DNA of 64,000 bases, from contig JAUHWL010000013.1 in NCBI GenBank assembly GCA_030424545.1, positions 1-64,000 on the forward strand. The letters are read 5' to 3'. Below the pieces are notes generated by a model that saw nothing but the letters and a program-made list of their open reading frames with translations, was not told where the DNA came from and searched no databases. Positions 37,909 through 45,032 of the stretch are shown here, piece after piece. A program made the position numbers and the translations under genes. This DNA is from Bacteroidia bacterium. Lineage in GTDB: Bacteria > Bacteroidota > Bacteroidia > Flavobacteriales > Schleiferiaceae. Positions within the stretch are counted from its first letter, which is position 1. Each line of letters opens with the position of its first letter.

Positions 37909-38493
37909 CTACTGCGTTAAAACAATATTATGTTGCTCAATAAGTTTTCTAAGATTTATAAGTGCATACCGCATACGGCCTAATGCCGTGTTAATACTAA
38001 CATCCGTCTGTTCTGCAATTTCTTTAAAACTCATTCTGCTATAATGTCTCAATTTTAAAACTTCGCGTTGTTCATCCGGTAAAAAGTCTATTAATTTTTT
38101 CAAATCTCCCTCTATTTGATCCCATATTAAAGAACTTTCAACCGAAGGAGATTCGTCTTTAATCACATCAAAAATATCAAACTCTGCTGTTGGAGATATA
38201 GTTGGCATTCTTTTAAGTCGCCTAAAATGATCGATAACCAAATTGTGAGCTATGCGTAAAACCCAAGGTAAAAACTTACCCTCCTCATTATACTTTCCTT
38301 TTTTTAAGGTTTGGATAATTTTTAAAAACGCATCTTGAAAAACGTCATTGGCCAAATCTTCGTCTCTAATACGAACAATAATATAATTGTAAATTTTTGC
38401 TTGATGCCGATTGATTAATACTCCAAGGCACGCTTCATTGCCTTTCATGTACATTGATACCAACTTGCTATCTGGGAGTTGTAACATATCCAT
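37909..38493 (-). CDS. ECF-type RNA polymerase sigma factor
   Basis: 194 residues. Region 2 (~22-92) has INRHQAKIYNYIIVRIRDEDLANDVFQDAFLKI and the -10-binding FLPWVLRIAHNLVIDHFRR. Region 4 (~128-188) has LPDEQREVLKLRHYSRMSFKEIAE with a helix-turn-helix DVSINTALGRMRYAL. No anti-sigma gene lies beside it. This type (often encoded near housekeeping genes in Bacteroidota) may not need an anti-sigma factor. The upstream region (38494-38740, shared with uvrA) contains no other gene. Confidence 0.93.
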   Translation of the reverse strand: MDMLQLPDSKLVSMYMKGNEACLGVLINRHQAKIYNYIIVRIRDEDLANDVFQDAFLKIIQTLKKGKYNEEGKFLPWVLRIAHNLVIDHFRRLKRMPTISPTAEFDIFDVIKDESPSVESSLIWDQIEGDLKKLIDFLPDEQREVLKLRHYSRMSFKEIAEQTDVSINTALGRMRYALINLRKLIEQHNIVLTQ

Positions 38494-41549: not shown

Positions 41550-42014
41550 TTAACGCTTTAAAGTCAACCTAATTTCTTCAAATTCTTTGGCCATGGCGCG
41601 TCTTTGTTCCAAAGTCAAGTCGGCTTCGCTGTGCAGCCAAACGTAATTGTTTAGTGGCATCCATCCTTCTTCTAAAGCCTCTATTACTTCTTCTAGCTTA
41701 TGGTCTTTCTTTTTTAAGGAGTATGAATCAAACTCACTAAAGTTTAGTTCTCCCCTACCATGCTTTATATGGTCTTCTAAAAAGAATGAAACGGGCGCAA
41801 CATGACTATACCATGGATATACAGTTTCATACGAATGGCAATCATAGCAAGCCTTTTTTAATAAACTACTCGTTGAGGATGAAAGGGTGTAATTAGACAA
41901 AAAATCGATACTCTCATCAACGGGGGGATTAGTTCTATCTATAGAAATAAACTGCATTGAAATTAATACAAATACCAAAATAAGTGCAAAAATTTTAAGA
42001 ACTCTCTTAACCAT
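41550..42014 (-). CDS. Haem-binding-domain (PF14376-type) protein
   Basis: 154 residues. An N-terminal membrane anchor or signal (KIFALILVFVLISMQFISI) precedes ~30-150. KKACYDCHSYETVYPWYSHVAP holds the single CxxCH haem-attachment motif, and GWMPLNNYVWLHSEADLT is the conserved C-terminal part with the WMP motif. It is a small periplasmic monohaem protein, probably electron transfer or haem handling. It is divergent from the ECF sigma gene of the RiPP locus; the start codons are 88 bp apart, so regulation may be shared, but this is inference. Confidence 0.85.
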   Translation of the reverse strand: MVKRVLKIFALILVFVLISMQFISIDRTNPPVDESIDFLSNYTLSSSTSSLLKKACYDCHSYETVYPWYSHVAPVSFFLEDHIKHGRGELNFSEFDSYSLKKKDHKLEEVIEALEEGWMPLNNYVWLHSEADLTLEQRRAMAKEFEEIRLTLKR

Positions 42015-42102
42015 ATTTTTCTATTTTTTTATTAAAACAATAAAAAATCTGTTGTGCTTGCAAATTTTATACTTTCCACAACATAAAAAATTAAAAACAC
42101 AA

Positions 42103-42663
42103 ATGCATAGTCTAAACCCAAATAAATGGATTGATAATTATGCTGACTATTTATATAACTACGCAAAAACACGGGTAAGCGAGAAAGAAGTAGCAGAAGA
42201 TTTAGTTCAGGAAACATTTTTAAGTGCCTATAAAGCACGAGAAAATTACCAAGGCCGGGCAACTGAAAAAACTTGGCTGATATCTATTTTAAAAAATAAA
42301 GTGATAGATCATTATCGAAAAACGCTAGTAAAAGACCCCGAAATTAGCGGGAGAAAAGAAACGCCCATTTCCTTTTTTAGCCAAGATGGCGCGTGGGATT
42401 TAGACCATGTTGGCACAGATTGGCGCATCGATGCTTCTTCGCAGCTAGAATCGGTGGAGTTTAAGGAAATATTTAAAAAATGTGTTTCTAACCTAAAAGG
42501 AAAATCGCTAGCTGCCTTTCAACTTAAATACATAGATTTTGAAGAGAGCGAAGCGATATGTAAGGCACTAAATATTAGCCCGTCAAACTTCTGGGTGATT
42601 ATTCACAGGGCCAAATTAAACTTGAGAAATTGCCTAAATAAAAACTGGTTCGATCAGATATGA
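42103..42663 (+). CDS. ECF-type sigma factor of the peptide-modification locus
   Basis: 186 residues from the ATG at 42103; the frame opens at a TTG. Region 2: YNYAKTRVSEKEVAEDLVQETFLSAYKA (~21-48) and TWLISILKNKVIDHYRK. Region 4: KGKSLAAFQLKYIDFEESEAICKALNISPSNFWVIIHRAKLNL (two parts, ~130-175). The N-F-W-V helix in region 4 recalls sigma factors that carry a small zinc anti-sigma partner. The stop overlaps the start of the anti-sigma-like gene (ATGA). The HvfA/BufA-like precursor, DUF692 enzyme and DUF2063 partner follow, so it is likely to control them, as ECF factors do for related operons elsewhere. Confidence 0.92.
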   Translation: MHSLNPNKWIDNYADYLYNYAKTRVSEKEVAEDLVQETFLSAYKARENYQGRATEKTWLISILKNKVIDHYRKTLVKDPEISGRKETPISFFSQDGAWDLDHVGTDWRIDASSQLESVEFKEIFKKCVSNLKGKSLAAFQLKYIDFEESEAICKALNISPSNFWVIIHRAKLNLRNCLNKNWFDQI

Positions 42664-42926
42664 ACATGATTCATAAAATAATTTACCCGTGCGAAAAAGC
42701 CACGAGACACTTGATAGAAAGTGATGATGTAAAATTAACGTCACTACAAAAATTGCGCATCAGAATACATTTAATTATATGCAAAAATTGTACGCGTTTT
42801 AACATCCAAAATAAATGGATGGATAAACAAATTAAAAAGTTATCTTTTGAAAGCAGCAATGAAAAGATGGAAGATTGTTGTAAAGAAAGAATAGCAAATG
42901 CATTAAAAAAAGAAATCAATTCATAA
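42660..42926 (+). CDS. Small zinc-finger-like anti-sigma factor
   Basis: 88 residues, soluble, no membrane helix. Cys/His pattern: CEKATRHLIES (~10-20), then IRIHLIICKNCTRF (~34-47; H-x3-C-x2-C), as in the small ZAS/HC2 anti-sigma domains of ECF systems, followed by a basic and acidic helix with CC at ~73. Its start overlaps the sigma stop by 4 bp, which fits a co-translated pair. The gap to the precursor gene is 53 bp. The signal sensed is unknown; redox or copper is an attractive inference. Confidence 0.8.
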   Translation: MNMIHKIIYPCEKATRHLIESDDVKLTSLQKLRIRIHLIICKNCTRFNIQNKWMDKQIKKLSFESSNEKMEDCCKERIANALKKEINS

Positions 42927-42933
42927 AAAAGAG

Positions 42934-42961
42934 GGTAAGAATTATTCTCTGCTAACGATTA
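42934..42961 (+). promoter_or_regulatory. Candidate ECF-type promoter before the precursor gene
   Basis: GGTAAG (42934-42939) and CGATTA (42956-42961) are spaced 16 bp apart, resembling the GTAACC-N16-CGAA type of ECF promoter. It lies 18 bp before the precursor ATG. No second copy was found upstream of the sigma gene, so this is speculative. Confidence 0.25.
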
Positions 42962-42979
42962 ATTTAAAAACAAATACAA

Positions 42980-43405
42980 ATGGAAAACAAATCGAAAATT
43001 ATCTTAAAAGGTTCTCTTTTAGCGGGATCAATCATTAGTCTTGGTGCATTGCAAGTTCAAGCAGAAGATTTAGTACGCGCAGAAAACCTAGGATCTGGCG
43101 GAGAAATAAGAGCAACTCTTTTGGCTAGCGAACGCATTATTGACAATGCTATTGAGTTAAAATGTGGCGAAAAGAAAGAAGAAGGCAAAGGGAGTAAGAA
43201 AAAAACGGAAACAAAAAGCGAAAATAAAGCTGAAGAACACAAGTGTGGCGAAGGCAAATGTGGCGAAGGCGAAAAGAAATTAGAAACAAAATCTGAAAGC
43301 AAATCGAAAGAGCACAAATGCGGAGAGGCTGCACCAAAAAAAGAAGCTAAAAGCGAAAGTAAAGCCGAAGAACACAAATGTGGTGAAGGCAAATGCGGAA
43401 TGTAA
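42980..43405 (+). CDS. HvfA/BufA-like cysteine-repeat RiPP precursor
   Basis: 141 residues. Residues 1-28 are a Sec-type signal peptide ending QVQA, followed by a ~30-residue segment (EDLVRAENLGSGGE...). Six Cys occur, at 62, 89, 94, 114, 134 and 139, each inside KCG, mostly as HKCGE or GKCG. Three modules of the form SE(N/S)K..EHKCGE recur (~80-98, 105-118, 125-141). This resembles HvfA peptides, in which a DUF692 enzyme modifies Cys in EGKCG motifs, giving copper-binding groups. The remaining residues are almost only Lys, Glu, Ser, Gly. It sits directly before the enzyme genes. Nearby antisense frames are shadows. Confidence 0.85.
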   Translation: MENKSKIILKGSLLAGSIISLGALQVQAEDLVRAENLGSGGEIRATLLASERIIDNAIELKCGEKKEEGKGSKKKTETKSENKAEEHKCGEGKCGEGEKKLETKSESKSKEHKCGEAAPKKEAKSESKAEEHKCGEGKCGM

Positions 43406-43416
43406 TTCACATAGAA

Positions 43417-43442
43417 GGGCCGAGCAAATCGGTCCTTTTTTT
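43417..43442 (+). terminator. Hairpin with T-run between precursor and enzyme genes
   Basis: GGGCCGA pairs with TCGGTCC (one G-T wobble) around GCAAA and is followed by seven T. It starts 12 bp after the precursor stop and ends 11 bp before the DUF692 ATG. It probably acts as a partial terminator that yields more precursor than enzyme mRNA. Confidence 0.7.
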
Positions 43443-43453
43443 ACCCTATTTAA

Positions 43454-44296
43454 ATGATTGATTTAAACGGCAAAGTTGGTTTAGGATTTAGAAGAGACCT
43501 TTCTGAAGATCTATTAACGACCAATGGTTTTAAACCCAGCTTTGTTGAGCTAGCACCAGAAAATTGGATGAACATTGGCGGATATTGGAAAAAAACTTTA
43601 GATAAGATTGTGCTGCAATATCCCGTAATTTGTCATGGATTATCGCTTTCTATTGGCAGTCCAGACAAACTAGATTTTGCCTTTTTAAAAGATTTAAAAT
43701 TATTCTTAGATCAAAATAACGTTCACATTTATTCTGAGCATTTAAGCTACAGCAAAGCAAAAAATGCGCATTTGTATGATTTGCTCCCCATACCTTTTCG
43801 GCAAGATGCCATTAAACATATTGTAGAAAGAATTACGATTGTGCAAGATTTTTTAGAGCGGAAAATTGCGCTAGAAAATGTTTCTTACTACACGCCCGTT
43901 GCCGCAGAAATTGATGAGGCCACCTTTATTTCTGAAATTGTAAATCAAGCTAATTGCAACTTACTTTTAGATGTTAACAACGTTTACGTAAACGCATTCA
44001 ATCAGCAATATAATGCCAAAGAGTTTATAAAAAACCTGCCTTTAAACCGCGTAAAATACATCCACATGGCGGGCCATGAAAAAATAGAAGACGATTTAAT
44101 TATAGATACACACGGCCAAGATATTATAGATCCTGTATTTGAATTGTTTGATTTTGCGATTAAACACTTAGATCCTGTGCCCGTTTTGTTGGAGAGAGAT
44201 TTTAATATCCCACAATTAAATACTCTGCAAAAAGAAATAAACGCTTTAGAAAACATCTGTGCAAAAAACTGGAATTTGAAACATGCAGCTATCTAA
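43454..44296 (+). CDS. DUF692/MNIO multinuclear iron enzyme (HvfB/BufB family)
   Basis: 280 residues, TIM-barrel, cytosolic. Family motifs in order: VGLGFRRDL, FVELAPENW (Glu36-type), ICHGLSLSIGSPD (His61), YSEHLSYSKA, the LENVSYYTP motif, LLLDVNNVYVNAFN (Asp-Asn), IHMAGHEKIEDD, IIDTHGQDIIDPVFEL (Asp-x-His) and LLERDFNIP. These include the His/Asp/Glu/Asn residues that bind the iron cluster in MNIO enzymes. It should oxidatively modify Cys residues of the precursor encoded just upstream. A stop-start overlap of 14 bp couples it to the DUF2063 partner. Family length is usual. Confidence 0.93.
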   Translation: MIDLNGKVGLGFRRDLSEDLLTTNGFKPSFVELAPENWMNIGGYWKKTLDKIVLQYPVICHGLSLSIGSPDKLDFAFLKDLKLFLDQNNVHIYSEHLSYSKAKNAHLYDLLPIPFRQDAIKHIVERITIVQDFLERKIALENVSYYTPVAAEIDEATFISEIVNQANCNLLLDVNNVYVNAFNQQYNAKEFIKNLPLNRVKYIHMAGHEKIEDDLIIDTHGQDIIDPVFELFDFAIKHLDPVPVLLERDFNIPQLNTLQKEINALENICAKNWNLKHAAI

Positions 44297-45032
44297 AGAA
44301 ACAAAAGATATTCAAGAGCAATTGGGACATTATTGCCAAACAGGGCAATTAATAAAACCCATTGTTGGCGCCAAACTAGAAAGGCTCCCTCATTATAGAC
44401 GCCTTGTTTTTAACGTGATTAAAGACTCTTTATCAAGCGCCTACCCGCTTACAAAATCGCTTATTGGCGATGAAAAGTTTTACCAATTATGTTTTGCGTT
44501 CTTCTCTACCCACGCCTGCAAAGAACCGCAGGTATATAAAATGACAGGCGAAATATTAACCTATTTTAAAGAACATGATGTTCTAAACCTCAAAAGTGAA
44601 TTTCCTTTTATAGAAGAACTTATGCTATTTGAGTGGACAGAAATGGAAATGTACATGATGGCAGATTTAGCACTGCCTAAGGCAAAAAAAAGTGGCGATT
44701 GGTTGCATGATATCTTGGTGCTAAACCCAGAAAGCCGATTGCTAGATTTTACCTACCCTGTTTATAAAGTTAAACCCAACCAACTTCTAAAAGAAAAAGC
44801 CGGACAACATTTTTGTGTTGCCTACCGAGAAAAAAACACAGGCAAAATTTATTTTATTGATGTATCTCCTCTAGTAGCGCTAATAATCTCTGCTATAAAC
44901 ACAGGAAATAAATTACATTCCATATTTGATGAACTTAACCAGTCGGGAATAAAATTGAATGAAGAACAAAAAGATAAAATAGTAGCATTTTTAAAAAGTG
45001 AATCATCCTTGGTACTAGGTTTTATCCATTAA
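44283..45032 (+). CDS. DUF2063 partner protein (HvfC/BufC family)
   Basis: 249 residues. The N-terminal DUF2063 helical domain (~1-95) has IVGAKLERLPHYRRLVFNVIKDSL (two parts) and YPLTKSLIGDEKFYQL. The C-terminal ~110-249 part corresponds to the peptide-recognition wing of HvfC/BufC (LLDFTYPVYKVKP, FCVAYREKNTGKIYFIDVSPL). It delivers the precursor to the DUF692 enzyme. It overlaps the enzyme gene by 14 bp. No DoxX-family gene (often the fourth member of bufferin operons) follows. Confidence 0.88.
   Translation: MQLSKETKDIQEQLGHYCQTGQLIKPIVGAKLERLPHYRRLVFNVIKDSLSSAYPLTKSLIGDEKFYQLCFAFFSTHACKEPQVYKMTGEILTYFKEHDVLNLKSEFPFIEELMLFEWTEMEMYMMADLALPKAKKSGDWLHDILVLNPESRLLDFTYPVYKVKPNQLLKEKAGQHFCVAYREKNTGKIYFIDVSPLVALIISAINTGNKLHSIFDELNQSGIKLNEEQKDKIVAFLKSESSLVLGFIH

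Follow-up and report, generated by a model that had tools for sequence, protein, structure and literature searches.

A Bacteroidota HvfABC operon headed by an ECF sigma and zinc anti-sigma gene pair, with msrB as a predicted second target

Which signal calls for a cysteine-modified peptide in the envelope of a Bacteroidota bacterium, and which regulator answers it? HvfABC/captophorin peptides have mostly been described from Pseudomonadota. The question is raised by a locus in the first 64,000 nucleotides (hereafter the window) of contig JAUHWL010000013.1 from a Schleiferiaceae genome (assembly GCA_030424545.1). Five plus-strand genes run there in one direction and encode an extracytoplasmic function (ECF) sigma factor, a small Cys/His protein, a secreted Cys-repeat precursor, a DUF692 enzyme and a DUF2063 protein. 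We read them, with a probability of roughly 0.7 and on sequence evidence, as a self-contained HvfABC operon for a ribosomally synthesized and post-translationally modified peptide (RiPP), with its own stress regulator, which would act through the steps proposed below. Its predicted regulatory link to msrB is the new part, and the predicted ECF promoter before the precursor and msrB genes is new here.

Operon identity and gene company

By the families of its predicted proteins, the locus is a Bacteroidota HvfABC (oxazolin/captophorin) operon, an already known kind. The initial annotation had described the five-gene order with overlaps of 4 bases (sigma and small genes) and 14 bases (DUF692 and DUF2063 genes); these coordinates were confirmed and the Pfam and NCBIfam scores lie beyond chance. 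Gaps of 53 and 48 bases precede the precursor and DUF692 genes, respectively. Its assignment to an HvfABC-type RiPP locus also holds, as the NCBIfam models for HvfB and for the HvfA domain score above their cut-offs (Table 1), the HvfB model being passed by the three relatives tested as well. The bufferin-type label that accompanied it finds no support in the strict BufB sense: the DUF692 protein reaches 275 bits against a BufB cut-off of 310 and the precursor has no DUF2282 match. Membership of ChrH is rejected from the placement of the enzyme in a tree of 42 sequences, in which all 31 Bacteroidota HvfB-type rows lie on one side of a branch (support 100/99), next to enzymes from Moraxella and Acinetobacter plasmids and apart from the BufB and ChrH rows; this tree holds only six Pseudomonadota rows, some of them long, and no characterized HvfB. 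The DUF692 gene is the sole one found in its genome. The DUF2063 protein scores 117.8 bits against NCBIfam HvfC (cut-off 142) and 25.6 bits against NGO1945_C (cut-off 27), and a sequence search matched it to no solved structure.

The enzyme occurs in 5 of 88 genomes of the window's family. Among 393 genomes drawn from the order there are 47 matches, of which 10 are close (at least 58% identity, own included) and the others at most 45% identical, and one scan of named genomes contributed 21 further loci from Chitinophaga, Draconibacterium, Puteibacter and other Bacteroidota. Close loci are counted here as the 30 with upstream sequence, own included; L034 and L047 are omitted, both beginning at the enzyme. 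Next to the HvfB-type gene, 29 of the 30 have a precursor gene (28 detected by phmmer, and L061 by its KCG repeats), and the sigma and anti-sigma genes are part of the operon in 19, own included, and missing from it in 11. A DUF692 gene without a Cys-repeat gene beside it, which the initial annotation had named as speaking against its reading, was encountered among these loci only at L062, whose DUF692 frame has three stops. This HvfB-like gene (L012/L062, G288:C4), with three in-frame TAA codons in a 1.3 Mb genome, is a pseudogene or reflects a different reading of TAA. The order also has 37 distant DUF692 places. None of the 19 available as loci (L013-L031) has a KCG-repeat frame by the criterion used; of the four that were classified, two exceed the cut-off for BufB and two that for ChrH. 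L013-L019 carry DUF692 genes from another family in the order, and the two classified among them (L013, L015) pass the BufB cut-off.

Predicted targets of the sigma factor

The 88-aa small protein carries the motif C11-X25-H37-X3-C41-X2-C44, which is retained in all 19 homologues (own included) and conforms to the zinc anti-sigma (ZAS) definition C/H-X23-26-H-X3-C-X2-C (PMC7907618). Judged by eye to lack a membrane span, it is, on its motif, a cytoplasmic-type ZAS. Upstream of the sigma gene, at 42050-42078, TTG is followed further on by TATACTTTC, and the two resemble the Bacteroidota housekeeping promoter consensus; the sigma gene may therefore not be self-regulated.

Reading the upstream stretches across relatives revealed TGTAAGG-N15-CGTCTA before many precursor genes. 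A pattern composed from these stretches, after they had been read, is present in 11 of 28 precursor upstreams, with 0.005 expected from shuffles. We scanned ten genomes with a strict pattern before msrB had come into view and obtained 17 matches (reversed control, 11): 5 precursor sites, 4 within the sigma gene, 5 within other reading frames and 3 intergenic. The three intergenic matches, in three Chitinophaga genomes, all precede the same gene, which encodes an envelope lipoprotein-like MsrB (SelR domain).

A scoring matrix made from 11 precursor sites only was then applied to the msrB upstreams. It finds a site of at least 8.8 bits in 12 of the 17 sigma-bearing genomes with an msrB match, comprising 7 of 8 Chitinophaga and 5 of 9 others (own G000, G029, G030, G031 and G435), and 6 of the 8 sigma-bearing Chitinophaga have a strong site before both precursor and msrB. 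None of the five Chitinophaga genomes lacking a sigma gene in the operon has the msrB site. Four of the five have no sigma homologue genome-wide at E 1e-20 and the fifth has a 41% homologue with a stop, elsewhere; they occupy three places in the enzyme tree (L035; L037; L050-L052), with moderate support. In one genome without the sigma gene, that of C. ginsengisegetis, the msrB flank is retained and the site has decayed. The site is likewise absent from the second msrB copy (0 of 13 Chitinophaga genomes, best 2.2 bits), from the best-matching msrB copy of five genomes called Chryseobacterium-like from their ChrH relatives (no sigma homologue, or one of 33-39%) and, at that score, from nine family genomes picked for lacking DUF692 and not by sigma status, whose best values are 5.9 and 6.2 bits about 190 bases upstream.

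A further combination is seen at L183 (G030:C1:499000-511500). The genome G030, from the genus of the operon carriers G029 and G031, has no precursor, hvfB or hvfC there. Its sigma and anti-sigma genes are at the same place, flanked by the haem gene and by a gene resembling the rRNA methyltransferase gene that adjoins the operon in the window, and its msrB site scores 15.9 bits. The presence of the msrB site thus goes with that of the sigma gene and not with that of the RiPP genes; G030 is either a natural peptide-gene knock-out or represents the state before the gain of these genes.

The window's genome has its msrB on another contig than the RiPP operon, preceded by CGTAAGC-N15-CGACTA (10.9 bits, reached by 13 of 2000 shuffles and by 4 of 1000 in another set). 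A looser pattern, run in six Chitinophaga genomes chosen for their known msrB site (G430 and G432 omitted) and serving only the search for further targets, gave 23 matches (reversed control, 12): 6 at precursor, 6 at msrB, 4 in the sigma gene and 7 elsewhere, none of the 7 being an intergenic match that recurs. Further regulon members were rejected, the remaining matches falling inside reading frames or once between genes (L152). An extra promoter inside the Chitinophaga sigma gene was rejected too, as the matches fall in codons of a conserved ICK-D/E-LS segment.

Outside the phylum, 352 plasmid records had a match, and six of these were examined. The Pseudomonas aeruginosa plasmid pPALO11 (L136) has the window's own gene order (sigma, zf-HC2, precursor, DUF692, DUF2063) and, before the precursor, a promoter-like TGTAACG-N15-CGTCCA, selected with the Bacteroidota matrix at 15.8 bits (0 of 1000 shuffles). 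It differs by a DoxX gene that follows, by its sigma factor (27% identical over 147 residues) and by LSSGYSVA in place of LGSGxExR. An Acinetobacter ursingii plasmid carries the same genes, rearranged, and a Moraxella plasmid has a near-copy of that arrangement in which an insertion sequence separates DUF692 from DUF2063; both have TGTAATA-N15-CGTCTA (14.6 bits; 1 and 0 of 1000 shuffles, respectively). We count these two as one case because the stretch is common to both, which leaves two independent plasmid cases overall. On the Pectobacterium, P. putida and Sphingomonas plasmids, where no sigma gene is listed next to the operon, there is no site (at most 4.3 bits), and a SelR search on three plasmids gave no match.

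Several observations weigh against the reading as a self-regulated HvfABC operon. The HvfC, anti-sigma and sigma proteins all score under their NCBIfam cut-offs. We recognize no precursor site in 4 of 19 sigma-bearing loci (L046, L053, L054, L055), and L037 (20.5 bits) and L056 (15.1 bits) retain one without having the sigma gene. The own precursor site is weak, its score being reached by 16 of 2000 shuffles; the window contains 14 places of at least 7.8 bits on both strands, one of them, of 16.3 bits, inside the sigma gene. The own msrB site is weak as well, and a second msrB-type frame of the same genome scores 7.8 bits, close to the precursor's 7.9. A pattern made from the two own sites matches 7 times in this genome and 8 times in the reversed control, and of the 7 the two own sites alone directly precede a correctly oriented start, five falling inside open frames (same-strand frames examined). 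The msrB count of 12 of 17 depends on a threshold fixed after the scores were seen, and G029 sits exactly on it at a score reached by 23 of 1000 shuffles. Five of the 17 genomes miss the site (G037, G431, G432, G433, G434), G432 being counted as a miss with 10.3 bits only over a wrong start, and three of the 20 sigma-bearing genomes (G024, G436, G437) have no msrB match and stand outside the 17. The Fisher test of 7 of 8 against 0 of 5 Chitinophaga gives p 0.005, or 0.02 without the weak G430 site, with kinship ignored.

The weakness of the own sites, the four sigma-bearing loci without a precursor site and the absence of the pair from 11 of 30 operons would suit a sigma pair that is a mere neighbor and regulates something unrelated. 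We consider this very unlikely, given that the promoter recurs upstream of precursor genes in many relatives and is also found upstream of msrB, that the msrB site is lacking where the sigma gene is missing and that the P. aeruginosa plasmid has an identical gene order. The earlier proposal that the peptide is induced through the sigma pair finds support to this extent: the precursor promoter recurs in many relatives and the msrB site tracks the sigma gene, but control is predicted only and the sites are weak in the own genome.

Precursor, proposed mechanism and inducing signal

The precursor comprises a hydrophobic N-terminus ending VQA (a signal peptide called by eye), LGSGGEIR and then six cysteines, all in KCG (two in EGKCG); it scores 23.5 bits against the full HvfA equivalog (cut-off 95). 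The initial description of three modules is fair, but they do not set this precursor apart, as HvfA itself has three AEGKCGEGKCG motifs whose six cysteines become 5-thiooxazoles (PMC13419390). A [LM]G(S/N/T)G...[VILA]R block follows the signal peptide in 26 of the 28 phmmer-detected precursors and is absent from those of L058, L060 and L061. LSSGYSVA stands at a similar place in the P. aeruginosa plasmid precursor, and the Moraxella and Acinetobacter precursors have no such block, which may be the stretch gripped by HvfC. Core sequences vary: L054 and L055, from one genus, have GEGSCG in place of EGKCG, with nine and seven cysteines, and Chitinophaga precursors have GQGKCG cores, unlike EGKCG.

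Of 28 loci, 13 have a terminator-like hairpin with a T-run in the gap between the precursor gene and hvfB, against a mean of 0.3 and a maximum of 2 in shuffles; outside Chitinophaga the share is 11 of 15. The own hairpin (43415-43437) is absent from the listing of a separate scan for such hairpins. The hairpin is likely a partial terminator favoring precursor mRNA.

Could the Cys-repeat protein be an unmodified metallothionein-like or thiol-buffer protein, with HvfB and HvfC acting elsewhere? The several Bacteroidota cores unlike EGKCG (GEGSCG, GQGKCG) would agree with such a protein, as would the lack of any modification by a Bacteroidota HvfB in the portions of the literature examined. The occurrence of precursor and HvfB together in 29 of 30 loci and the fit of the KCG core to the HvfA-type domain model argue the other way and, to us, make it highly improbable.

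For the self-regulated HvfABC operon we propose that the zinc anti-sigma keeps the ECF sigma factor bound in the cytoplasm and that oxidation of the zinc site, or metal loss there, would free the sigma factor. RNA polymerase would then initiate at the GTAAG-N16-CG promoters of two genes, the precursor gene and the msrB for the envelope lipoprotein-like MsrB, and the hairpin behind the precursor gene would give a surplus of precursor transcripts. HvfC would deliver the precursor in the cytoplasm to HvfB, which would convert the KCG cysteines into 5-thiooxazoles, a conversion that we infer from homologues. The Sec signal peptide would export the peptide, which would bind and passivate copper (or related soft metals) in the envelope, and MsrB would repair oxidized methionines there alongside it. 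By analogy with characterized relatives, copper binding by the peptide is plausible.

What would free the sigma factor is a separate matter. In Haemophilus under hypochlorite, control of msrAB and of a DoxX/COG3220/DUF2063 operon lies with RpoE2, whose anti-sigma has 67 aa (PMC7907618). The pairing of sigma, RiPP and msrB genes mirrors this RpoE2 regulon (msrAB, hypochlorite), and envelope oxidation is therefore at least as likely a cue as copper; we regard it as the better guess for the inducing signal. A dedicated copper-excess (bufferin-like) response would instead have copper freeing the sigma factor, the peptide sequestering copper and msrB as a side target. Characterized relatives do bind copper (PMC12668002, PMC13419390), and the Caulobacter SigF operons are induced by dichromate (PMC3511200). 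We found nothing in favor of copper as the inducer, however: no pattern match precedes a recognizable copper gene (strict patterns, not a full matrix genome scan), the recurrent second predicted target is msrB, and the nearest studied sigma factor with a ZAS anti-sigma answers hypochlorite (PMC7907618). A copper-excess response is thus rather unlikely in our view, and the two readings overlap because copper oxidizes thiols too.

More tentatively, and with what we would call somewhat under even odds, an ECF sigma factor, a ZAS anti-sigma, an HvfABC thiooxazole peptide and an envelope Msr could form a regulon common to Bacteroidota and Pseudomonadota, with a GTAA(G/C)-N16-CG promoter. If so, the peptide would belong to an old envelope-oxidation response and not to a copper-only one, and the conserved logic would be metal passivation paired with methionine repair. 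Bacteroidota offer natural combinations of these parts in hosts beyond the studied pathogens, namely RiPP genes with and without the sigma gene (Chitinophaga) and the sigma gene without RiPP genes (G030), so that the choice between a copper and an oxidant signal is directly testable.

Neighboring genes and known systems

Table 1. Features of the HvfABC locus in window coordinates
Feature	Position	Strand	Evidence
ECF sigma factor gene	42103-42663	+	Sigma70_r2 61.8 bits (Pfam); best NCBIfam TIGR02943, below cut-off
Small Cys/His protein, predicted cytoplasmic-type zinc anti-sigma, 88 aa	42660-42926	+	ZAS motif; NCBIfam antisigmaE 45 bits, cut-off 50
Predicted ECF promoter of precursor, GGTAAGA-N15-CGATTA	42932-42965	+	7.9 bits; weak version of TGTAAGG-N15-CGTCTA
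HvfA-type precursor, 141 aa	42980-43405	+	KCGExKCG_twice/HvfA domain 23.3 bits, cut-off 19.5 (NCBIfam)
Terminator-like hairpin then T-run, between precursor and hvfB	43415-43437	+	-15.8 kcal/mol
HvfB, multinuclear non-haem iron oxidase (MNIO; DUF692)	43454-44296	+	PF05114 328 bits; NCBIfam HvfB family 378 bits, cut-off 360; 3bww E 4.7e-64
HvfC, DUF2063/RiPP recognition element (RRE) partner protein	44283-45032	+	DUF2063 48.8 bits, cut-off 27.2 (Pfam)
Haem_bd (PF14376) gene, judged a neighbor outside the system	41550-42014	-	Haem_bd 147 bits

A DoxX-type cluster gene (one member confirmed with Pfam) lies downstream in 22 of 32 related loci and is found at this place in L053, from the window's family; it is absent beside the own operon, the two DoxX genes of this genome both being elsewhere. 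DoxX (HvfX) is a usual though not a universal part of HvfABC clusters, and because the core genes occur "in various combinations" (PMC12452194), this absence does not exclude HvfABC. The initial annotation was right that no DoxX gene is adjacent here, but with 22 of 32 related loci having one this is no difference of type.

The divergent monohaem gene, also put forward as a distinguishing feature, fares less well. Among the related loci, it adjoins the operon in the window and L053-L055 alone; L057, another locus of the family, lacks it there, as do all loci from elsewhere. A search of 10 DUF692-less genomes of the family matched it in four, and in three of the four uvrA lay outside the 1.5-kb flanks. 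In G030, without the DUF692 and other RiPP genes, it is still kept beside uvrA, and we reject it as a part of the system.

A second ECF-like sigma gene (37909-38493, minus strand), similar to the operon sigma by phmmer, lies about 5.5 kb from hvfB, and the same distance is retained in L054 and L055. In the Chryseobacterium-like L058, L059 and L060, there is no sigma pair and a different sigma-like gene (cluster c67) lies upstream of the precursor.

EGKCG precursors of 31-506 residues have been reported, mostly from Pseudomonadota, with sigma genes mentioned for Buf1 clusters (PMC12452194); the main text of that paper, as available, contains no word beginning "Bacteroid". Captophorins bind copper, their distribution figure, by its legend, spans Pseudomonadota, and the related FonBC removed 8 Da from a two-repeat substrate (PMC12668002). 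Neither "sigma" nor "Bacteroid" occurs in the available passages of PMC12538549. A literature search restricted to text and covering few subscription papers returned no paper on a Bacteroidota MNIO with a sigma factor, or on a Chitinophaga ECF sigma with msr.

Among the studied systems, Caulobacter SigF is an ECF sigma factor that drives precursor-DUF692-DUF2063 bufferin operons from a promoter, GTAACC-N16-CGAA, resembling the GTAAGG-N15-CGTC found here; it differs by a DUF2282 precursor, a membrane DUF1109 negative regulator and YedY as second target, with no msrA change seen (PMC3511200). In Neisseria, NGO1944-1948 bring together an ECF sigma, DUF2063, DUF692, a putative periplasmic protein and DoxX, linked to msrAB (PMC2954202), and differ in gene order by locus number, in the inclusion of DoxX and in phylum. 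The hvfABC(X) operon of Haemophilus influenzae shares the secreted six-Cys KCG-repeat precursor, the MNIO and the DUF2063 partner (PMC13419390), and we infer that the DoxX/periplasmic/COG3220/DUF2063 operon under RpoE2 is hvf. The RpoE2/HrsE/msrAB system in turn has an ECF sigma factor and a small cytoplasmic ZAS anti-sigma, the sigma factor controlling a periplasmic MsrAB (PMC7907618). In Haemophilus, the sigma and anti-sigma genes lie in the msrAB region and DoxX in the RiPP operon, whereas here no DoxX gene is adjacent and the regulatory pair heads the RiPP operon itself.

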